Assembly (NCBI GenBank): GCA_017994055.1
Contig: JAGOLL010000009.1
Coordinates: 1-49,817, forward strand
DNA: 49,817 nucleotides
DNA from: Methanothrix sp.
GTDB lineage: Archaea; Halobacteriota; Methanosarcinia; Methanotrichales; Methanotrichaceae
Direction: 5' to 3'
This document shows, piece by piece, positions 9,699 through 49,641 of this stretch. The position numbers and the translations under genes are program-made. Within the stretch, counting starts at the first letter, position 1. The number at the start of each line of letters is the position of its first letter. The notes under the pieces were generated by a model. The model saw nothing but the letters and a program-made list of their open reading frames with translations, had not been told where the DNA came from and did not search any database.

Positions 9699-10271
9699 TT
9701 AATGCGCCGGTCCGGCTTCCTCTTTGAGAATATCGCTCTCGGAGTCGGCCTTTTCGTCCTTCATCTTGACTAAAAGCCATCCTCGCTTGGTTTGGATGAG
9801 GGAAAAGCCTCCCGAGAGCCTCTCTCCCTCCAGCCAGAATGCGGCATGGCCCTCTTGTAGGGCCTGGGCCAGGGAGATCTCCTTTCCATCTTTGCGGGAT
9901 ATGTTCACATATCTGCCGCGATCCCATATCTCCACTGTTCCCGCACCGTACTCTCCTTCCGGTATACTGCCTTGAAATGAGGCATACTCCAGAGGATGGT
10001 CCTCTGTCTGTATCGCCAGGCGCTTGTCCCTGGGATTCATGGAAGGGCCTTTGGGAACGGCAAACGACTTGAGGACCCCATCCACCTCCAGGCGCAGGTC
10101 ATAGTGCAGTCGGCGAGAGCTGTGCTTCTGGACCACAAAATTCTGGCCTGGAGAGCCGACAGCTTTTTCCGGCGGAGGGGGCTCGGTTGTGATATTAAAA
10201 TTTCTCTTATCCCGATAGGCTTTCAGAGAGTCTGAATGAAAAGGTAGCGATCCTTTCCCGATCCCGGCCAT
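9699..10271 (-). CDS. Stand-alone LigD-type 3'-phosphoesterase
   Basis: The 190-residue protein matches the phosphoesterase (PE) domain found at the N-terminus of bacterial LigD. The active-site residues are in place: H50 and H56 in QKHSSRRLHYDLRLE, D58, R60, and H92 in EDHPLEYASFQG. Such enzymes remove 3' phosphates or ribonucleotides at DNA ends before ligation. No ligase or polymerase domain follows, and no Ku gene is seen in the window, so it acts as a separate enzyme, as in several archaea. The start at the ATG (minus strand 10271) gives a plausible N-terminus (SLKAYRDKRNF); the frame is open further upstream but there it runs through the next gene. Confidence 0.88.
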   Translation of the reverse strand: MAGIGKGSLPFHSDSLKAYRDKRNFNITTEPPPPEKAVGSPGQNFVVQKHSSRRLHYDLRLEVDGVLKSFAVPKGPSMNPRDKRLAIQTEDHPLEYASFQGSIPEGEYGAGTVEIWDRGRYVNISRKDGKEISLAQALQEGHAAFWLEGERLSGGFSLIQTKRGWLLVKMKDEKADSESDILKEEAGPAH

Positions 10272-10357
10272 AAGGACACCTGCGATATGGATTGCATCAA
10301 ACAGAGATTTTCGGTTTTGATCGTCTATGCATACCGAAAAATTATTGGTTGGCGGCT

Positions 10358-11194
10358 TCAACGCCTCCTTTGATTTTGGTTGCTGCTGTAGGTCCAATAG
10401 GTGTAGTAGGTATGCCCCGTGGGCGGATAGGTATAGGTTATGGGGCTGTCCCAGTAGGGATATCTGGGCGGTTCGGGATTGGGCCTGGGATTGGGATTGA
10501 CCCAGTAGTTGCCGCCTCCATAGACATAAATGTAGGCGTAGTTGCTCCATCCGCCGCAATGGTACTGGAGGATGTGCCAGCCGGGAGTATCGGCGTAGAA
10601 CCATCTCTTGTACCAGCCGGGGAAGGAGATATATCCTGCATACTGGGTATCCAGAGTGCCGCTGGGATACCACTCATAAAACCAGATGTTTCCGGCCCTG
10701 GAATTGGACATCCATAATGGCAGGTGGGTGTAGAGGTTGCAGCTGGCCACAGTGCGGGGAGCGTAGGAGACATAGAGCTTGTTAGGGGCAATGCCACCGG
10801 AGGGTACGATCATCTTATTGTAGGCCGGATAGGTTGCAGTTGACTTGGCTGCTGCGGGAGCTGAAGAATAGGCTGCCTCCTGAGTTGATCGCATCACTAC
10901 CTGAGTATTTTCCTGGGCAGAAGGAGCCTGCAGGCCTGAAGATGCATCTGAAGGGATGGTGATCCCCAATGATTCCGGGCTCTTCGGAGATGGGGGGACG
11001 GGGGCTCCGCCTGATGTGGTGGTGGAGAAGTCTACAGGGGATCTCTGGCCGCCGATGAAGGTATCAGGGTCGATGTAAGTATTATCTGGATAAGCGGGAT
11101 TCAAGTAATCAGTACCGGGATATGTGGTCCACTGTCCTGATGCTACTGCGCATATCAGCATCATCAAGCCGGCTAGCAATATAGGCCATTTCAT
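10358..11194 (-). CDS. Secreted aromatic-rich protein with a shared Methanothrix-type module
   Basis: The 278-residue product has a signal peptide (MKWPILLAGLMMLICAVASG) preceded by GAGGTG at good spacing, which fixes the start. After a low-complexity Ser/Pro/Ala region (about 60-125) comes a module of about 90 residues (NKLYVSYAPRTVA, then YPSGTLDTQYAGYISFPGWYKRWFYADTPGWHILQYH) rich in Trp and Tyr, and a Pro/Asn/Tyr-rich tail. A related module occurs in the secreted protein at 33,958-34,950 (see findings). The function is unknown; the composition suggests a surface or sheath protein. It is transcribed divergently from nre with a spacer of only about 75 bases. Confidence 0.78.
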   Translation of the reverse strand: MKWPILLAGLMMLICAVASGQWTTYPGTDYLNPAYPDNTYIDPDTFIGGQRSPVDFSTTTSGGAPVPPSPKSPESLGITIPSDASSGLQAPSAQENTQVVMRSTQEAAYSSAPAAAKSTATYPAYNKMIVPSGGIAPNKLYVSYAPRTVASCNLYTHLPLWMSNSRAGNIWFYEWYPSGTLDTQYAGYISFPGWYKRWFYADTPGWHILQYHCGGWSNYAYIYVYGGGNYWVNPNPRPNPEPPRYPYWDSPITYTYPPTGHTYYTYWTYSSNQNQRRR

Positions 11195-11230
11195 CTTTGA
11201 GCACCTCATGCTATTATTGTTACTATGAAT

Positions 11231-11240
11231 GTATATATCT
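11231..11240 (+). promoter_or_regulatory. TATA box of nre
   Basis: The sequence GTATATATCT lies about 35 bases before the ATG at 11271. Archaeal transcription normally starts 23-27 bases after the TATA centre, that is near 11,260, which argues for the 11271 start rather than the in-frame ATG at 11229 that lies inside this box. Confidence 0.55.
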
Positions 11241-11270
11241 AACCATGAAGCTGAGCCCATTGAAAAGAAG

Positions 11271-12518
11271 ATGGCTGAGAACTCGTTTGGCAGTGAACTC
11301 ACTTTCGCGCCCCATGCCTCCTCCTTTTATTGGCATCTGCAGGCTATGGATATTGTGATCAAGGGCAAGGAAGCCTATCTAAAGAAGCTGACGGCCAGCA
11401 TGTATATCCCCTCCCACGAGATGGGGATGGAGATCGATGGAAGCTCTCCGCCATCTGTATTTGTGGGAAGCTGGAACTATCCCCAGGTCTTTGCCGGGCC
11501 AATGATCGCACCGCTTCATGGGGATACCATGATAATGGACCAGCCAGAGTCCTGGCTGCCGGAAAAAAAGACTCAGGAGGAGATAATAAGATACCGTCTC
11601 AATCTGGTGAGAGGCAAGCAGAAAGTCAAGGTCACCAATCTGAATGACAGATTCATAGGAAAGCTGCGGGATATAGCCCTCTCCTCCCGCTCTCTGGAGA
11701 GCCAGGCAGAGTTTCAGCAGGCTCCCAGGGGGGTCACATTCAGCCCGGATCATGCCCCTTTCGGCCCCAGCGCATCCCTACAGCGGCTGGATATAGAAGA
11801 TTCCCGTTGGGAGCAGCATCTGGAGAAGGCCTATTATGATGACGATCTCCGGGCGGCTGAGGCTGTGGCCCGTCTTCATGAGAGGGGTCTGCCCTTCTCC
11901 AGCATTGAGAAGGCATTCTCCCTGGGATGTCTCGGAACTGGCAAGCGGCGACGCCTGGTCCCCACCCGCTGGGCTATCACGGCCTGCGACAGCGCCCTGG
12001 CCCGCCGGCTGCTGCAAAATGTGAGAGCATACGAGCCCATCGACTGCTGCCAGGTGAGGGAGTTTTCCAGCCTCAACAACTACTATGCCGTCCTGCTCCT
12101 GCCCACCGCCTGGCAGTATGAATGGATGGAGGCTTTTTTGCATATACTGGGCCGCGAGGAGCTGATCTTCTCCGACTACGAGAACAATGGAGGCAAGAAG
12201 GGCTATTCCCGGGTGGGAGGATGCTACTACTCCTGCAAGATGGCGGTGCTCGATGCTCTCGCCAGGGAGAAAAAGCAGGCAGGGGCCATAGTCCTCCGGG
12301 AAGCCTATCCCGGATATGTCCCTCTGGGGGTCTTCAACGTCCGGGAGAATGTGAGAAATGCCATGCGCCAGCCGGGGCAGGAGTTCGAGAGCATGAAGAC
12401 GGCGCTGCAGTATATCTCCGCCAGGCTTGAGCTGCCGATCAAGAGGTTCATTGAACAGAGCGACCTTCTCCAGGAGCAGATGCGAAGCAGGCAGACGACA
12501 TTGAGCTGCTTTTCTTGA
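11271..12518 (+). CDS. Nre family DNA repair protein
   Basis: The 415-residue protein carries the archaeal Nre (DUF650/DUF651) signature [17 protein letters not shown] near the N-terminus, [17 protein letters not shown] in the middle, and [18 protein letters not shown] and [12 protein letters not shown] further on. Nre proteins take part in DNA repair after alkylation or crosslinking in haloarchaea and bind PCNA. A C-terminal PCNA-interacting peptide is visible, QTTLSCFS. The N-terminal cysteine zinc motif present in some members is not seen here. The ATG at 11271 is preferred because a TATA box overlaps the alternative at 11229. The last 47 codons are duplicated as a fragment at 45,564-45,704. 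Confidence 0.87.
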
Positions 12519-12551
12519 TCTCTGTCTGCCGCTCCGGGGCATCCTGAAGGG

Positions 12552-13148
12552 CTAGGATGAGGCAGCCGCAATGATCTCCAGTATCAGCTGCCACCAGCTT
12601 TTTTCTTCCACCTCGTTCTGCCTCCGGATATCTGAGCCTGCCTCTAGAGTGTAATTAAATTGATCCAACTGCCCTGTGCTGTATTCTTCCTCGATAGACT
12701 GCTCCTCCCAGTACCAGCTCTCGGGATCGAATTCATTGTTCCTGAAGTCCTTCTTGGCCGCATGGCCGGAGTCTATAAGCATGCGATTATAGTTTCTGCC
12801 GTCTTCCAGATAGCAGACCGCCATCCACCGGCCGTAGTCGTCTTGTCCGTTCTTGTCATCGATGTCCAGCGAGACGAGATTGTCCATCAGATTGGAGCGG
12901 GTATACTCACCGGCAATCCTGCCTGCTTCACATGCCCTCTCCCCATACATCTCCGGGGAGTCAAGGTCTGCCAGCCTGACCCGGATGACCTCATCGGAGA
13001 TGCGGTCATCATGGCTGGAGAGCCTCACATCAAAGGTATCCCCGTCAGTAACATGGATCACCCGGCCTGCCGCTTCGTCCGGAGCGGCGCTGGCCGATGC
13101 AATCAGAAGCAATATATGGATCATAAAGAAGGCTTTTATGAATCTCAT
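12552..13148 (-). CDS. Secreted thermonuclease (SNase domain), copy 1
   Basis: A 198-residue protein with signal peptide (MRFIKAFFMIHILLLIASASA) and an SNase domain. Compared with staphylococcal nuclease the key residues are kept: D35 and D37 in DGDT (calcium ligands), R58 in RVRL, D63 and E66 in DLDSPEM, and R107 in YGRWMAV. After the core comes a family-specific segment NNEFDPESWYWEE. Enzymes of this type cut DNA and RNA outside the cell. The start at 13148 was chosen because the paralog at 45,740-46,336 begins at the same place, while the upstream ATG is followed by a stop there. It converges with nre, 33 bases apart, and the whole block is duplicated. Confidence 0.88.
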   Translation of the reverse strand: MRFIKAFFMIHILLLIASASAAPDEAAGRVIHVTDGDTFDVRLSSHDDRISDEVIRVRLADLDSPEMYGERACEAGRIAGEYTRSNLMDNLVSLDIDDKNGQDDYGRWMAVCYLEDGRNYNRMLIDSGHAAKKDFRNNEFDPESWYWEEQSIEEEYSTGQLDQFNYTLEAGSDIRRQNEVEEKSWWQLILEIIAAASS

Positions 13149-13282
13149 GAACTCATTCATCCCTTTGCATGCCCTGTTCATGCCCCTGCAATGTAAAAAT
13201 GCTTTGCTGCAAGGAGAATGGATGCAAAGCCGTTGCTCCAGCTGATTTACTGCCGCAGAGGCAAAAAAAAACAAACTTTAAT

Positions 13283-13300
13283 TTTGATTTATTTATATTA
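13283..13300 (+). promoter_or_regulatory. A+T-rich promoter region with TATA-like box
   Basis: TTTTGATTTATTTATATT lies between the divergent thermonuclease and DUF11 genes, about 75-85 bases before the latter's ATG. It could serve the rightward gene; which TATA element is used cannot be told from sequence. Confidence 0.35.
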
Positions 13301-13370
13301 TCTTTGCTTGGTTAAACTTAATAACTATAACCTCCGATATGCCTAAAAAAATGCTCATAAGTGATGTCCA

Positions 13371-13889
13371 ATGCATTTCCCAAGGATGATCGATTATTGG
13401 GGATTGGTTTTTCTTGCCCTCTTACTGATATTGACCTTCTCCACCCAAGCGGCTTATCCTCCCCAGGCAGACCTGAGCGTCTCAAAAGAGGCCTCTATAG
13501 AGGGAAATGTCGCCTTGGAGGTCCATCCCGGTGAGGCATTCGACTATGTGATAACTGTTTCCAATAAAGACCCTTTGAGACCTGCGGTCATGGTTGTGGT
13601 CACAGATAAGCTGCCCTATGAGGTTGCCTTACGGTCCATAAATGTGAGCTCCAGTCTGGGATCAAATACAGTAGAAATGTCCGGAGACCTGATCTATGTC
13701 CGCTTGGACGAGATCCCGGCGAACCGCACTGGCAGGATCGTCATCTCCGTGACTGCCCCCGAGCAGGCGCCCACAACCCTCTACAATATAGCCAACATCA
13801 GATACGCCAACGATCCCAACCAGAGCAACAACCGGGCCACAGTCAGCACCTATGTTCCTCTGCTGGGATACGACCGTCTGGGTGCATGA
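13371..13889 (+). CDS. Secreted DUF11-domain protein
   Basis: The 172-residue product has an N-terminal hydrophobic signal (YWGLVFLALLLILTFSTQAA) and one DUF11-type immunoglobulin-like repeat: ADLSVSKEAS, VHPGEAFDYVITVSN, VVVTDKLPYEV, GRIVISVTAPE and NIANIRYANDPNQSNNRATVSTYV. Such modules are common in cell-surface proteins of methanogens. It holds a single repeat and no C-terminal anchor, so it is probably released or bound to another surface protein. ATG codons at 13371 and 13386 are both possible starts. It precedes the marker 14 gene by about 100 bases. Confidence 0.8.
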   Translation: MHFPRMIDYWGLVFLALLLILTFSTQAAYPPQADLSVSKEASIEGNVALEVHPGEAFDYVITVSNKDPLRPAVMVVVTDKLPYEVALRSINVSSSLGSNTVEMSGDLIYVRLDEIPANRTGRIVISVTAPEQAPTTLYNIANIRYANDPNQSNNRATVSTYVPLLGYDRLGA

Positions 13890-13986
13890 GAGAGGGATAT
13901 GGAGCAGTTAGGCAAGGGTGGCATGGTCCCGGAGCCGGCTCTGCCCACCCAAAGCTTTATTCTATCCTCCTGCTCTTCTTGCCAGC

Positions 13987-15507
13987 ATGAATCTCGGTCG
14001 GCTCTTCAAGTCCAAACCTACTCCTCGCATCGCTGCAAGCCCGCCATTCAACTATCTGGAGTTGCGGACCAAGCCCTACTACATCGTAGCCTCGGTGGAG
14101 GTGGGCAACACCACCACCAAATGCGTTCTCACTGCCACGGACATGAACACCGGCAAGACCTATATCGTGAACAAGACGGTGAAGATGACCCGGGATGTGC
14201 GGCTGCCGAGGCCCGGCGAGGAGATCTTCGCCCACACTATCAACGGCACGCCTTTGACCGAGCAGTCCATTGCCGAGCTGGTCAAGAGCACTCTGATCGA
14301 GAGCCACGAAAGAGCTAGGCTGGACATCAAGAGCGATCTGCATTTTGTGGTCCGATCCACGGGAGTGGTGGCGGAACTGGACTCCCCGGACCAGGTGGGA
14401 GCCTTCATCCAGGCCCTGGCCAAGGGCTGCCTGGATGCCGGAGTTCCTCCCAGGCTGATGACCCCGGCCATGTCCATCCACAACATCCTGGACAAATTCA
14501 AGCGACTGACCATGATCGAGAAGGTCATATTCATGGGAGCGGTGGCCTCCTGCTTCCCGCCGCAAGGATCTACGGGGGTAGAGGTGGTGGCCAATGAGAT
14601 GGAAGGAGAGCTGGCCACGGCGGGCATCAAGGAGGGCAGCCGCTGGACTGATGTGGACTTTCGAAATCCGTGCCTCTCCATGGACTTCGGCACCACCCTG
14701 GATGGCAGGGTGACCAGTGACGAACTACCCTATGCCCATACCATAGGCAACCTCCTGGGCCTAGCCGGAGCCATACCTGATGCTGTGGTCCAGGGAACTG
14801 GTCTCGTGGACAAGTTGACCGGCGCCGCCCTGGACATATTCGACGGCAAAACCAAACCGGATTACGGCAAAGAGGCCCAGCAGTTTGCCCGGCAGATAGA
14901 CGATCTGGTCAAGATCGAGCGGGTTCCACTCTCCCGCACCAAGTATGGTCTGGTCCCGGTCAGCCCCGTGGCAGCAGCCGGAAACAATGTGGTTCTCATA
15001 GGCTGCGATGTGGGGGTGAACGGCAGCGACCTCTCCAAGCTCACCCGCATCGGCTCCGACCTCTACCAGTCCAAGAACCTGAGAATCTTATTCGGAGCCC
15101 TGGATCTGGCCATGGCCGGTGTGGCTCGCCGGCTGGTGCAGGTGGGTGTAGAAGAGGGAGTAGTGACCGGCAAGACGGCTATAGGAGTCACCGGCCGGGC
15201 AGGAATAAGTGGCGGCAAGCCAGCTCTGATCATAGAGGAGATAGAAAAGCTCAAGCTGTATGATGAGCCGGAGAAGAATGTGGTCTTCGTGGACGACGGC
15301 CTGGCCAGGGGAGCGGCGGTGATGGCCCGCTGCATGAACTCCATGGGCACTCCCAAAAATCCCCTGGGCGGCCTGCGGGGCAGCAGATGCATCCTCAAGG
15401 AGAGGATGCAGTATGAGGCGGCCAAGGGAGCAGCGCCCGTACCTCAATTGGAGCGGCCGGACCAGGATACCCATGCCTATTTCCAGGAGGGCCACGAGAG
15501 AGCATAA
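13987..15507 (+). CDS. Methanogenesis marker protein 14
   Basis: The 506-residue protein matches methanogenesis marker 14 (an actin/Hsp70-fold family restricted to methanogens): KPYYIVASVEVGNTTTKCVLTAT near the N-terminus, LHFVVRSTGVVAELDSP, CLSMDFGTTLDGRVT, and GVTGRAGISGGKPALI near the C-terminus. The glycine-rich GNTTTK and DFGTTLDGR segments resemble the phosphate-binding loops of ASKHA ATPases. Its cellular role is not known. The ATG at 13987 gives the usual N-terminus; the frame is open further upstream without conserved content. It is coupled to the next gene by a one-base gap. Confidence 0.92.
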   Translation: MNLGRLFKSKPTPRIAASPPFNYLELRTKPYYIVASVEVGNTTTKCVLTATDMNTGKTYIVNKTVKMTRDVRLPRPGEEIFAHTINGTPLTEQSIAELVKSTLIESHERARLDIKSDLHFVVRSTGVVAELDSPDQVGAFIQALAKGCLDAGVPPRLMTPAMSIHNILDKFKRLTMIEKVIFMGAVASCFPPQGSTGVEVVANEMEGELATAGIKEGSRWTDVDFRNPCLSMDFGTTLDGRVTSDELPYAHTIGNLLGLAGAIPDAVVQGTGLVDKLTGAALDIFDGKTKPDYGKEAQQFARQIDDLVKIERVPLSRTKYGLVPVSPVAAAGNNVVLIGCDVGVNGSDLSKLTRIGSDLYQSKNLRILFGALDLAMAGVARRLVQVGVEEGVVTGKTAIGVTGRAGISGGKPALIIEEIEKLKLYDEPEKNVVFVDDGLARGAAVMARCMNSMGTPKNPLGGLRGSRCILKERMQYEAAKGAAPVPQLERPDQDTHAYFQEGHERA

Positions 15508-15508
15508 G

Positions 15509-16222
15509 ATGCCCTCGAAAAAAAATGCTCCTCCAGAAGATGAGGGTGATGGCTCTCCTATATCGGTACAGTCCATAGAGCGGCGGGAGGAGTTGCTCTG
15601 GATCAGCCATGAGCCGGCGAGCCGGGATGCCTTTCCCCCCTGTATCAAGGCCATACTCTCGGGAAAGCGGGACGGCCCGGGCAGGCATCGCACTGCAGCC
15701 ATATTGGCCTCATTCCTTGGTCAGGTGGGATACGGCAGGGATGAGGCATGGCGGATCTGGCAGGGAACGGAAGATGTTGAGGAGAGGATCTTCGGGGATT
15801 GGTTTTGCCGCATGCACTGCCCCAAGTGCAGGGCTTTACAGCGAAAAGGCAAGGGCTATCCGGATCTGGGAGTTGCCGATCTGGGGCTGTGCCATCCGGA
15901 TCAGCTCTGTGCCAGCTTCGAGGGTCCGGTGGAGTATGCCTGCCGGATGATATCGGAGGAGGATCGCAGCAGAGGCTTTCTTGCTCCCATCAAGATCAGA
16001 TATCGCATCAGGATCTTTGACTGGTCCTCGGGAAAAGAGGGCGTAATTGAGCTCTCAGAGGCTGAAAAAGAGGCGCTGGAGACCCTCCTGAGGGAAAAGG
16101 CGGCCTGCCGGGGGAAGATTCTGGTCTATAAAAAGGTCCGGATCAAGGGAAGGCTGCGACCCTGCTTTTTTTTGCGCATTCAGGATGAGCCAAGGAAGCA
16201 GATTCTCTCCGATCTGATCTGA
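15509..16222 (+). CDS. PriL C-terminal-like Fe-S domain protein
   Basis: The 237-residue protein has the layout of the iron-sulfur domain of the DNA primase large subunit: FPPCIKAILSGKRDGPGRHR (C45), AAILASFLGQVGYGRDEAWRIW, DVEERI, then CPKC (C104, C107) and GLCHPDQLCA (C128, C134) followed by the VEYACR segment that parallels HPLxYY. It is shorter than PriL, which has a large N-terminal domain, so it is a separate protein and not the replicative primase subunit. A binding role at primer or DNA ends is possible but inferred. It starts one base after the marker 14 stop. The cysteine spacing differs from canonical PriL. Confidence 0.62.
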   Translation: MPSKKNAPPEDEGDGSPISVQSIERREELLWISHEPASRDAFPPCIKAILSGKRDGPGRHRTAAILASFLGQVGYGRDEAWRIWQGTEDVEERIFGDWFCRMHCPKCRALQRKGKGYPDLGVADLGLCHPDQLCASFEGPVEYACRMISEEDRSRGFLAPIKIRYRIRIFDWSSGKEGVIELSEAEKEALETLLREKAACRGKILVYKKVRIKGRLRPCFFLRIQDEPRKQILSDLI

Positions 16223-45261: not shown

Positions 45262-45563
45262 TTCTATTTTGATCAAGAGTTGTGATCAGATTAGTTCGCC
45301 AACTAAGTAGTAATGATATCTCGGTCTAAGTCCGTTGACTGTTGACCTTTTCCAACTCCGAGATTTATTAAGCGGTCCTTCAGGTGCATTGAGACTCGAC
45401 CAAATCATTAAATATAAATATACAAAGAGATAAAACATAATCTCATGAGCTTCATGCGAGGGAAGAATTATGTGTTTCAGTATAAAACCAAATTAATATC
45501 TTCTTTATCTTATCTTGAATACTTGGATGTCTCACTTTATTTTTTAATAATAGATGGCCTGCC
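45262..45563. other. AT-rich intergenic stretch after tRNA-Thr
   Basis: About 300 bases with no gene seen. A TATA-rich stretch TTAAATATAAATATACAAAG lies near 45409-45428. Reading frames are short or run into the duplicated fragment. No direct repeat of the tRNA 3' end was found here. Confidence 0.45.
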
Positions 45564-45704
45564 CAGGAGTTCGAGAGTATGAAGACAGCCCTGCAGTATG
45601 TCTCTGCCCGGCTTGAGCTGCCCATCAAGAGGTTCATTGTACAGAGCGACCTTCTCCAGGAGCAGCTTCGGAGCCGCCAGACCACATTGAGCAGCTTTTC
45701 CTGA
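45564..45704 (+). pseudogene. 3' fragment of nre (duplicate)
   Basis: Forty-six codons reading [20 protein letters not shown] and ending QTTLSSFS, nearly the same as the last 46 codons of the Nre gene (12,378-12,518), including the PCNA-binding end peptide. Sequence before 45564 is unrelated and AT-rich, so there is no start or body for this gene. It is the left edge of the duplicated block. Confidence 0.85.
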
Positions 45705-45739
45705 GTTACGTCTGCCGCTCCGGGGCATTCCCTCAAGGG

Positions 45740-46336
45740 CTATGACGAGGCTGCGGCAATAGTCTCCAGAATCAATTGCCACCAGCACTTATTCTCGGCT
45801 TCCTTCTGCTGCACGATATCTGAACCGGCCTGGGGACTCTGATCCTCCTGATCGGACTGCACCGGGCTGTATTCTTCCTCAATAGGCTGCTCCTCCCAGT
45901 ACCAGCTCTCGGGATCGAACTCATTGTTCCTGAAATCCTTCTTGGCCGCATGGCCGGAATCGATGAGCATGCGGTTGAAGTTCCTGCCGTCCTCCAGATA
46001 GCACACCGCCATCCACCGGCCATAGTCGTCCTGGCCGTTCTTGTCATCGATGTCCAGAGAAACAATATTGCCCATCAGATTGGAGCGGGTATATTCACCG
46101 GCAATCCTGCCTGCTTCACATGCCCTCTCCCCGTACATCTCAGGGGCGTCAAGGTCTGCCAGCCTGACCCGGATGACCTCATCGGAGATGCGGTCATCGT
46201 GGCTGGAGAGCCTCACATCAAAGGTATCGCCATCGGTAACATAGATTACCCGACCTGCCGCCTCGTCCGGAGCGGCGTTGGCTGAAGAAATCAGCAGCAA
46301 TAGGGGTACTATAAAGAAGACCTTAATCGATTTCAT
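45740..46336 (-). CDS. Secreted thermonuclease (SNase domain), copy 2
   Basis: A 198-residue paralog of the thermonuclease at 12,552-13,148, with signal peptide (MKSIKVFFIVPLLLLISSANA) and the same catalytic set: DGDT with two metal aspartates, RVRL arginine, DLDAPEM and YGRWMAV arginine, then NNEFDPESWYWEE. Sequence differs mainly in the signal peptide and C-terminal tail (GQLDQFNYTLEAG versus QSDQEDQSPQAG). It converges with the nre fragment as its partner does with nre. The start agrees with the other copy. Confidence 0.87.
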   Translation of the reverse strand: MKSIKVFFIVPLLLLISSANAAPDEAAGRVIYVTDGDTFDVRLSSHDDRISDEVIRVRLADLDAPEMYGERACEAGRIAGEYTRSNLMGNIVSLDIDDKNGQDDYGRWMAVCYLEDGRNFNRMLIDSGHAAKKDFRNNEFDPESWYWEEQPIEEEYSPVQSDQEDQSPQAGSDIVQQKEAENKCWWQLILETIAAASS

Positions 46337-46597
46337 GAACTAATTCATCCCTTTCTACGCCCTTTCATGCCCTTACAGTGTAATAATACTTCGCTATAGT
46401 GATTTACAGAAAAGATATGCCTGCCATAGGTCCGGCATCTAGCCATGAGGTCTTGTGGTACAGGGATTTACCGGGCGGAAGATGACAGTGTATAATTCAT
46501 ATTCATCATCTCCAGATCATCGGAGAAGCTGCCAACGATCTCTCTCGCGGAACTGACATAATGGAGTCATGACATCCCCGGATAAGTCGCATTTTTC

Positions 46598-47200
46598 TCA
46601 AGACGTATCTCTTTTAAATTCGCTTCTTAAAATTATATGAAATCTTTTTAGTATCATAAATAAATTTAATATGAAAATAGATACTAGATAATAAATTAAA
46701 AATGCGAGCAAATAGGGCATTGTCTGGGCATCGAGTAGCGCGAAATCGTAAGCCTCATTTGTATTATTGCTCGATATATTTATATTATTTGAAATGACAT
46801 TATGATTTGTTAAAACATCAGATGTAGTCGCAAGTGAGAAAACTAACAATAATATTATAGTAACTACAGATATCAAAATTCCAAAGGAGATATTAGATGA
46901 CAATTCTTTGAGGAGAGTGGCTCTTAGCGGTCGTTTATTTGAATTTGGCTTTCCAATAATGTCATAAACTAATAATAGCAAATTAAATAGTAAACCGGCA
47001 AAAACCGATAAAGACATTACAAGGACATTAACTAATTGGTCACTTAAAATCACTTTAAAATATATAATAATAGAAGATACAAAAATTGGTAATATAAAAA
47101 ATATGAACAAATCAAGTATACTATATCTACCATTATCGTAGTCCTTAAGTGTCGAAATATGATCTTTAATAATGTTGATAACGCTTAGTTTATTGCTCAT
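46598..47200 (-). CDS. Cassette protein C: four-helix membrane protein
   Basis: The 200-residue protein (MSNKLSVINIIKDHISTLKDYD start) has four hydrophobic segments: LFIFFILPIFVSSIIIYF, LVNVLVMSLSVFAGLLFNLLL, ISFGILISVVTIILLLVF and LLAFLIYYLVSIFILNLFM. A loop with sequons (NINISSNNTNEAYD) lies between the third and fourth. No known family is recognised. The gene is very AT-rich and overlaps the upstream 71-residue gene by 11 bases (ATGAGCAATAA), so it is the last member of a tight three-gene unit. Confidence 0.72.
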   Translation of the reverse strand: MSNKLSVINIIKDHISTLKDYDNGRYSILDLFIFFILPIFVSSIIIYFKVILSDQLVNVLVMSLSVFAGLLFNLLLLVYDIIGKPNSNKRPLRATLLKELSSNISFGILISVVTIILLLVFSLATTSDVLTNHNVISNNINISSNNTNEAYDFALLDAQTMPYLLAFLIYYLVSIFILNLFMILKRFHIILRSEFKRDTS

Positions 47201-47405
47201 CGGGATTCCATCCCATAGCATCAGATAGATCCTTTAATAGATAGCGGGCATTCTTATCTATGCTCTCAAAAACTGGATGTCCGTTTTCCATGCGAACCTC
47301 TTCGGTTATATCATAAAAAGCTCTTATCTTATATAAATTAGACAAATCAATAGTCCTAGTTCGCTTATTCACCTCTAACTCAAGCTTGATATTATTATTA
47401 TTCAA
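47190..47405 (-). CDS. Cassette protein B: small protein of 71 residues
   Basis: The start is TTG at 47405, with AAGGAG eight bases upstream inside the end of the previous gene; the stop of that gene lies in the overlap. The protein begins MNNNNIKLELEVNKRTRTIDL and has a middle segment YKIRAFYDITEEV and a helical end (NARYLLKDLSDAMGWNPDEQ). It is acidic at the end and has no known domain. Its overlap with both neighbours points to a subunit or adaptor made in fixed ratio with them. Confidence 0.65.
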   Translation of the reverse strand: MNNNNIKLELEVNKRTRTIDLSNLYKIRAFYDITEEVRMENGHPVFESIDKNARYLLKDLSDAMGWNPDEQ

Positions 47406-48159
47406 AATTATACTCCTTGAGCTCAATTAATCTCTGCAACTCGCGGTCACCTTTTAGGAACTCTTTTAGTCGCCCCTTTAATGGAAGATATTTGCCAAAT
47501 CCTCTCTCAGCATGAGCTATGAGTTCCATATATCCTTCTTGTTCTTCGTGATCACTCCGATCATATGCATCCTCAATATTCTTGCCCATTCCAAATCGAA
47601 TAAATCTTATTTTCTTTAATCCGCCACGATTTAAATAATAATCTATAAGTTTTTGTGTAACCAGAGGATTCATTTCTACACGAAATTGGGGAAACATCCG
47701 GGTAAAATATTTATTAAAGCTATTTAAGAAGATGCTTCTTACTCCTTTTTGGCCGAATCTCTCGAGAATGACTATGCCTTCATCACGACCTTTAGGTAAG
47801 GACATGAGGAAATAGAAAGGCAATATTTCGGCTTCGCTGACAATCCTCTTATGAGAGAGCGATTTTTCCGGCACATTTATTAACTCACTTTCAAATCCGT
47901 ATTCACCTGTTTTAATTATCCCGCATAAGGTACGATTTTCATTTCTATCATCTACTGTAAGATTATCTATCTTAATTAATTTCTTAATTTCACTATTATG
48001 ATCATATTCGGATGAAATCTTGTTTAGGTATTTTAACAATTCCTGAAAAACATCCGGGGTTTTGGTTTTTGAGTTTTCATCTTCATCGCTATCAAGCACA
48101 ATATTTCGTTTCTTATTAGATACCCTAAATGAATAACCGGAAAGATATATGTTAGTCAT
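47398..48159 (-). CDS. Cassette protein A: soluble protein of about 253 residues
   Basis: The ATG at 48159 is preceded by GGTGTGAT. The protein begins MTNIYLSGYSFRVSNKKRN and has charged helical segments (about 35-65), a strand-rich middle (CGIIKTGEYGFESELINVPEK near 79-100), PFYFLMSLPKGRDEGIVILERFGQKGVRSIF near 112-142, and a C-terminal part with YLNRGGLKKIRFIRFGMG and HAERGFGKYLPLKGRL. The rhythm of strands and the Gly-rich stretch suggest a globular effector or sensor. No known family is recognised. An alternative TTG at 48231 would add a hydrophobic leader. Confidence 0.68.
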   Translation of the reverse strand: MTNIYLSGYSFRVSNKKRNIVLDSDEDENSKTKTPDVFQELLKYLNKISSEYDHNSEIKKLIKIDNLTVDDRNENRTLCGIIKTGEYGFESELINVPEKSLSHKRIVSEAEILPFYFLMSLPKGRDEGIVILERFGQKGVRSIFLNSFNKYFTRMFPQFRVEMNPLVTQKLIDYYLNRGGLKKIRFIRFGMGKNIEDAYDRSDHEEQEGYMELIAHAERGFGKYLPLKGRLKEFLKGDRELQRLIELKEYNFE

Positions 48160-48520
48160 AATCGCATCACACCATAATATCAAAACTATTATTAAATTTA
48201 GCAATACAATTGGAGTTACCTGAAATCGCAATTATTCTTTTCATTGTTGCACCATCTGATAGATCGGAATCCAATGTATTTAAACTTTTATTACTAGATA
48301 TTTTATAAAGTAATCATACAAAATAAAAACATTTACAGCCCCCGAAACGCGAGCCCCTCAGGCCCGCGCTTCTGGAACTGCTCCTCCCTCCTTTTTTTGG
48401 TAGTTGGTTTTTAGGTTATAATCGTGAAATCCCGAGGCCATAAGAGCACGGCATCGCATCCGGCGGGCCTCATCAGCCGCGCCGTCCGAGACCATGCTAA
48501 GACCTCCCATGATATAAAGC
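48160..48520. other. Region between the cassette and ilvC
   Basis: The left part (48,160-48,330) is AT-rich and holds likely promoter elements for the cassette on the minus strand (for example CTTTATAAAA near 48301-48310). The right part (48,340-48,520) is GC-rich; a minus-strand frame of 50 codons from 48510 (MGGLSMVSDGAADEARRM start) follows ilvC but has no clear signals and is not called as a gene with confidence. Confidence 0.4.
48348..48368. repeat. GC-rich inverted repeat
   Basis: CGCGAGCC (48348-48355) and GGCCCGCG (48361-48368) form a stem with one mismatch and a five-base loop. On the minus strand it is followed by TTTC, so it could end the ilvC transcript. Weak evidence. Confidence 0.35.
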
Positions 48521-49516
48521 TTACTTCTTGGCCAGCCAGGTCATCATCGCCCTCAGCTCCGCACCCACCTGCTCTATGGGGTGCTCGGCTTCAATCTTCT
48601 CCAGGGATTTCTTGACCGGCAGGCCGGCCTGGCTCTCCAAAATCCATTCCCGAGCGAACTCACCGGACTGGATCTCCGCCAGAATGTCCTGCATCTCTGC
48701 CCGGCTCTCCTCATTGATTATCCTGTGGCCGCGGGTCATGCCTCCGTACTCGGCGGTATTGGAAACATTGTTCCACATGCGCATGAATCCGCCCTCGTAG
48801 ATCAGATCCACAATCAGCTTAAGCTCATGGCAGGCCTCAAAGTAGGCGATCTCCGGCTGATAGCCGGCATCGACCAGCGTCTCGAAGGAGGCCTTGATCA
48901 TCTCTGTTACCCCGCCGCATAGATCCACCTGCTCTCCGAAGAGGTCTGTCTCTGTCTCCTCGGTGAATGTGGTCTCTATGACACCGGCCCGGGTGCCGCC
49001 GATGCCCTTGGCATAGGCCAGAGCGCGCTTTAAAGCTGAGCCGGAGGCATCCTGCTCCACAGCCACCAGGCAGGGAACTCCCTTGCCTTCCTCATAGGTG
49101 CGGCGCACCAGGTCGCCCGGACCCTTGGGGGCGACCATGACCACGTCCACATTCTCCGGGGGCACTATCTGGAAGTAGCGGATATTGAAGCCGTGGGAGA
49201 ATCCCAAGATATTTCCTTCCTCCAGGTTAGGGGCTATCTGCTCCCGGTAGATCTTGCCCTGGTACTCGTCGGGCAGGAGTATCTGAATGTAATCCGCCGC
49301 CTTGGCCGCATCGGAGACGGACATGACCCGGACTCCATCCTCCTCTGCCCTCTTCCAGGCCCGCGAGCCGGGCAGGTCTGCCGCTATGACATCCAACCCG
49401 GAGTCCTTGAGGTTCTCCCCCTGGGCGTGCCCCTGATTTCCCCAGCCCACTATGGCTATGGTCTTATCCTTTAAAACTCTCAGATCTGCATCTTTTTCAT
49501 GGTATATCTTAGCCAA
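48521..49516 (-). CDS. ilvC: Ketol-acid reductoisomerase
   Basis: The 331-residue class I KARI makes the second step of valine and isoleucine synthesis. Diagnostic parts: [20 protein letters not shown] (nucleotide-binding loop), the catalytic [12 protein letters not shown] and [17 protein letters not shown] (magnesium acidic residues), and [10 protein letters not shown]. The cofactor loop reads [12 protein letters not shown] (43-54), where typical NADPH enzymes have an Arg and two Ser (see findings). It is followed at 125 bases by ilvN in the same direction, the usual order ilvB-ilvN-ilvC. Confidence 0.95.
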
Positions 49517-49641
49517 ATCTCATTCCTCCATGTTCTCTGTTTCTTGAGTTATAATCATGATTACAGTCAAAATAATGGATCATAGACCGATCCTTGCCCG
49601 GCAAGGAGGATCGGCCCTGAAATCCCATTAATTCCGCCGCC

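Follow-up and report, generated by a model that had tools for sequence, protein, structure and literature searches.

A broken and likely acquired copy of a widespread gene pair, likely of the RexAB type, in a Methanothrix contig

The window analysed here covers positions 1 to 49,817 of contig JAGOLL010000009.1 of Methanothrix sp. (assembly GCA_017994055.1), 49,817 nucleotides in all, and the locus in question is a minus-strand cassette at 46598-48159. On balance we judge that this locus holds a broken copy, likely gained by horizontal transfer, of a unit of two genes that is widespread and likely an exclusion (abortive-infection) system of the RexAB type. The first-pass annotation had placed three minus-strand frames here, and each was found where it had been claimed: 253 residues at 47398-48159, 71 residues with a TTG start at 47190-47405, and 200 residues at 46598-47200. 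The overlaps, given as 7-8 and 11 bases, were measured as 8 bases between the first two frames and 11 bases between the last two. The interpretation as three genes synthesized at a fixed ratio did not survive: what had been read as a small "linker" belongs to a broken gene, and the number of genes is two.

A search with the 253-residue frame against a database of 5.8 billion proteins gave four matches of 321, 322, 323 and 336 residues, with identities of 98, 79, 68 and 59%, and all four extend into the sequence of the 71-residue frame. The closest of them, P0004 (321 residues), is 98% identical across the whole of the 253 residues, and the ATG at 48159 lines up with the start codons of P0004-P0006. 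The 71-residue frame aligns to the C-terminal end of P0004-P0007 and is 87% identical to P0004. In addition, a 58-sequence profile of the soluble protein matched the window as two adjoining pieces, at profile positions 1-248 and 244-310 of 311. Because the homologs run on and the profile matches in two adjoining pieces, these alignments indicate that one gene is split into these two frames: 47398-48159 (minus strand, 253 codons and a stop) is the N-terminal piece of a RexA-like soluble gene, and 47190-47405 (minus strand) is its C-terminal piece in another frame. Therefore, the 8-base overlap at 47398-47405 (minus strand), where the first piece ends and the second is already open, is a frame break and no evidence for translational coupling; the intact relatives P0004-P0007 are uninterrupted at this point.

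Since the soluble gene is broken in frame, the copy in the window has probably lost its activity, unless translation restarts at the TTG and yields the C-terminal piece. Intact copies of the gene exist in close relatives. A serious if lesser possibility is that sequencing or assembly introduced the break and that the cell has an intact, working copy; this is favored by the near identity of P0004, which belongs to a cluster of 15 member sequences, by the membrane gene, which is open and whose cluster (100% match) represents 14 contigs, and by the two soluble pieces, both of which remain open and well conserved. Against it, other loci of the family have shortened or split copies too, of the soluble gene in L010, L015 and L029, of the membrane gene in L010, L029 and L030, and further ones in L079, L081 and L083, and real decay is thus not rare in the RexAB-like family.

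The second gene of the unit, at 46598-47200 (minus strand), encodes a membrane protein of 200 residues with four long predicted helices and is RexB-like by position, according to its homologs, its model and its upstream partner. The model (predicted local distance difference test score 86.8) places the helices at residues 28-47, 54-82, 90-141 and 152-199, and the protein search found 59 homologs. Among these features the residues H14, P38, M182, L184 and R186 are invariant, and the conserved signature consists of H14, T17, P38, an LLFNLL core and a C-terminal M-x-L-K-R. From the alignment of the membrane protein we obtained 36 loci, on 23 genome contigs and 13 viral contigs; by record title the genome loci belong to cyanobacteria, Methanothrix, a Thermoplasmata archaeon, Caldisericaceae, Chloroflexi, Bacteroidetes, Verrucomicrobia, Gemmatimonadetes, Armatimonadetes and others. 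With a soluble profile that drew on protein-search hits and on three loci found before, the 36 loci themselves excluded, a soluble relative was detected directly upstream of the membrane gene on the same strand in 36/36 (weakest E value 1.3e-7), the short matches in L013 and L028 being due to an N gap and a contig end, respectively. Two later viral scans added 28 and 1 loci, two of which are the contigs of L042 and L043 again, and both genes were present in 29/29. The joint conservation that the first-pass annotation had proposed as a check thus holds for the soluble and membrane genes.

The same unit was found on phages and plasmids. A search of 50,697 phage records with P0004 gave two with the pair, the filamentous phage PfAC16 and a second P. 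aeruginosa phage, and two of 72,556 plasmids carried it, both from Acinetobacter. Taking the 36 and 29 loci together with L003-L007, the soluble gene lies directly upstream of the membrane gene on the same strand in 70/70. The median intergenic gap is -2.5 bases in the 62 loci counted as full length, which include L079 in spite of its split soluble gene; gaps were taken from the first possible start of each open reading frame (ORF), so that the 38/62 overlaps are an upper estimate. A divergent archaeal branch, L126-L129, was found by the soluble profile; its soluble frames measure 347-366 residues from stop to stop, and a membrane ORF with a weak membrane-profile match (1.3e-5 to 9.7e-9) follows directly downstream in 4/4. 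Gene arrangement and homology show the pair to be a fixed unit, soluble then membrane, kept in archaea, bacteria, phages and plasmids.

The best predicted-fold match of the soluble protein is lambda RexA, and the model has the two-domain fold of the RexA/RdgC/Iml3 type. The earlier statement that no family is recognized stood for Pfam and PADLOC, which assigned none of the three frames to a family at E≤1, and for NCBIfam, where the one match (15.3 bits versus a cut-off of 280) is noise. It did not stand for PHROGs, whose families of unknown function gave weak matches: the soluble piece matched PHROG 15676 at 3.1e-11, and most of the membrane protein matched PHROG 15250, at 0.0057. These two PHROGs are likely the phage branch of the RexAB-like family.

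Several comparisons at the level of sequence weigh against a RexAB assignment. Lambda RexA matches both PF15969 and the PADLOC RexA model, and nothing in Pfam or in PADLOC matched P0004-P0007 at E≤10; further soluble proteins of the family (four in PADLOC, two in Pfam) were unmatched as well. Likewise, the membrane protein was matched by neither RexB model (PF15968 and PADLOC RexB), and the PADLOC RexA and RexB models together missed 8/8 family proteins tested, yet found lambda. Profile comparison of the soluble protein with RexA gave E values of 0.64 and 0.11, and 0.012 for the phage branch, with a reported probability of at most 3.6%, and comparison of the membrane protein with RexB gave 0.36. 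The soluble-RexA profile alignment runs in roughly the same order along both proteins. In these profile comparisons any sequence tie to RexA or RexB stays at chance level. By the defining sequence models, the pair is neither RexAB nor Kiwa.

Kiwa had been named earlier as a possible model for the cassette. That a soluble protein and a membrane protein form a defense unit remains the best reading of an acquired locus with a four-helix partner, while Kiwa as the model gave way to the RexA fold. A divergent Kiwa, in which the membrane sensor KwaA and the DNA-binding KwaB would bind incoming phage DNA at the membrane with no leak, resembles the pair in overall make-up, with a membrane protein of four helices beside a soluble partner that binds DNA, according to the accessible text of PMC12904381. 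Nevertheless, the KwaB family PF16162 was unmatched in the intact relatives and in the own genome (0), while 4/60 genomes of the phylum match and 3 of them lie above the cut-off, and profile comparisons gave E values of 0.32 for KwaB and 0.12 for KwaA. Moreover, the membrane gene comes first in 4/4 archaeal Kiwa-type loci (in one of which the KwaB match is under the Pfam cut-off), the soluble gene comes first here, and KwaB structures, which are present in the PDB, were not among the 50 fold matches listed, of which RexA was the best, although such an absence proves nothing by itself. We regard a divergent Kiwa as highly improbable.

Under the RexAB-type reading, the soluble protein with its predicted RexA/RdgC/Iml3 fold would dimerize around DNA independently of sequence, by analogy with RexA, RexA homologs and RdgC, and viral DNA or replication intermediates would be the trigger that it senses. 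By analogy with lambda RexAB and the P. putida system RexABpp, the membrane protein may form an oligomeric pore that is silent until the soluble partner activates it, and opening of the pore would make the membrane leaky and stop growth before the virus spreads. In the accessible text on RexABpp, a RexA-like DNA-binding protein and a partner with four transmembrane segments are both required for defense, and raised RexApp leads to RexBpp-dependent growth arrest and membrane damage (PMC12894663). The roles might be reversed, with the soluble protein as a toxic effector that the membrane protein keeps inactive, as described for gp30/gp31 of phage Butters, a RexAB-like pair (PMC12894663, accessible text); the fixed pairing suits an inhibitor and its effector equally. 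Against this, the same text has the membrane protein as the effector in lambda and three other RexAB-like systems, and the five invariant membrane residues fit a working part, although sequence cannot tell the roles. We consider such a reversal unlikely.

The own genome, 2.38 Mb in 126 contigs and 86% complete, encodes McrA, for which the two methanogens were the only matches among 14 control genomes. The marked A+T richness reported for the cassette is confirmed: the G+C content of 46598-48159 is 0.319 versus 0.549 for the window outside the insert. The A+T-rich segment as a whole, 46396-48330, is about 33% G+C, and none of 890 stretches of 1,935 bases elsewhere in the window was as G+C-poor, their minimum being 0.47. 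The claim of horizontal gain also found support. The genus relative G025 aligns to window 45557-46395 and 48331-49578, with IlvC 98% identical, and between these flanks it has 138 unrelated bases versus 1,935 in the window, so that this site lacks the segment. A further 11 relatives were fetched: on the ilvC side the match ends at 48,323-48,364 in 10 (in L117 and L119 the end is at or near a contig end) and at 48,533 in L121, and the cassette was seen in none of the 11. The pair was detected in 2/99 relatives by single-sequence search and in 6/196 genomes of the phylum by profile search, the own genome counted in both; this sparse spread is patchy, as of an accessory unit. The locus is likely horizontally gained.

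Among the flank matches shown, no third gene recurs. From 34 of the 36 loci (the near-duplicates L010 and L043 excluded), 122 flanking ORFs matched 267 PADLOC families at E≤1e-5, none of the first 25 listed occurring in more than two ORFs; in Pfam, phage integrase was found in four of them, and the others of the 25 families listed in at most two. Three of 10 hand-picked flanks (L011, L017 and L019) matched PADLOC at 1e-10. These counts have no background set, and no defense enrichment is claimed from them. For 23 phage-type loci (six near-duplicates dropped from 29), 86 of 90 listed flanking ORFs were used, excluding two small upstream ORFs of L061 and the soluble-gene pieces of L079 and L081; the CI-repressor family was found in five and phage integrase in four. 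In the same 86 ORFs, from loci within L061-L089, phage P2 tail gene D families were found in five and gene U families in four, and a P2-like insertion spot may recur.

The pair could instead serve the mobile element itself, for example in lysis-lysogeny control or DNA maintenance at the membrane. Several viral copies lie near CI repressors or integrases, and lambda RexA also biases the lysogeny switch, according to the accessible text of PMC11077077. This role appears improbable, because a lone chromosomal pair also occurs, as in the window, where no mobile element surrounds the pair within the 1.9-kb insert, and because the pair adjoins type I restriction genes on two chromosomes (L011 and L017).

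Individual loci gave further observations. In PfAC16 (OR863247.1; L004, 412-1883) and at L005 2524-3995, the pair adjoins a phage repressor; in PfAC16 it is ORF1-ORF2, annotated as hypothetical, and the accessible text of a Pf phage study lists a toxin-antitoxin pair and PfsE as the defense systems of this phage (PMC11878078). On both Acinetobacter plasmids (L006 and L007) the pair is close to a BrnT/BrnA toxin-antitoxin pair, and pKPC-8dee has a predicted tet(39) gene near it as well and the shorter soluble ORF, of 286 vs 305 residues. In G072, an archaeon of the same class, the pair lies at 7968-9597 of L003, and ORFs at 10000-16000, which by eye we take to resemble a rolling-circle Rep protein and a resolvase-like nuclease, suggest that it sits in an integrated element.

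On the tRNA side of the cassette, the neighbor is an ORF at 45740-46336 (minus strand, 198 residues, signal-like start) that presumably, judged by eye, resembles a staphylococcal-nuclease-type protein. It lies within the stretch common to G025, whose alignment stops at 45557 on the far side, and it takes the place of the tRNA gene that had been named as the neighbor on that side. The truncated tRNA duplicate was not borne out either: the tRNA-Thr has no other exact match of at least 15 bases in the window, its closest inexact matches, of 66 bases (71%) and 24 bases (88%), fall in tRNA-Arg and tRNA-Leu genes called by ARAGORN, and the remaining ones are short and at chance level.

RexAB was the first abortive-infection system linked to anti-phage defense, and how RexA senses infection and opens RexB remains an open question to which a deep and diverse family would contribute, since it enables co-variation analysis of sensor and pore and tests in many hosts. 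The odds are about even that a large and ancient immune superfamily exists in which two genes encode a DNA clamp of the RexA/RdgC fold and a membrane pore of four helices, with lambda RexAB as one small outlying member. Such a superfamily would be carried by phages and plasmids, reach across archaea and many phyla of bacteria, and be missed by current defense models. If so, archaea would use RexAB-type membrane-leak immunity, and the membrane signature would correspond to the gate and trigger that lambda genetics left unresolved. In the accessible text of the 2026 paper on P. putida the RexAB-like systems number only five, all of phage or prophage (PMC12894663). That of DefenseFinder, which cautions that models are limited, places RexAB in Proteobacteria alone, a range that archaeal copies would extend. 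Our literature search, in a collection that lacks most subscription journals and preprints, turned up no published account of RexAB in archaea.

Among known systems, Kiwa (KwaA-KwaB) likewise pairs a membrane protein of four helices with a soluble protein of about 300 residues, and differs in its opposite gene order, the lack of sequence similarity and another best fold match. RdgC would have the RdgC fold without a dedicated membrane partner, whereas the family here adjoins a membrane gene in every locus examined and has a patchy distribution. PHROG 15676 and 15250 are both listed as of unknown function and not as a pair. With lambda RexA-RexB the pair shares the predicted soluble fold, the soluble-then-membrane order, a multi-helix membrane partner and, in some phage copies, nearby CI-repressor genes, rexAB adjoining cI in lambda; unlike lambda, neither protein has significant sequence similarity, the lengths are about 311 and 184 residues (family medians here) versus 279 and 144, and the family occurs on chromosomes and not only in phages, across archaea and many phyla of bacteria. 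RexABpp of P. putida (PP_5643-PP_5644) combines a RexA-fold DNA-binding protein with a four-transmembrane protein of similar sizes in the accessible text of PMC12894663 and possibly belongs to the same family. Because the defining sequence models fail while predicted fold, gene order, topology and phage context fit, we class the pair as a RexAB-like variant and not as a member of RexAB. The RexAB kind is known, and what is new, as far as our literature search shows, is a sequence-distinct family in archaea and many bacterial phyla that the present models miss.
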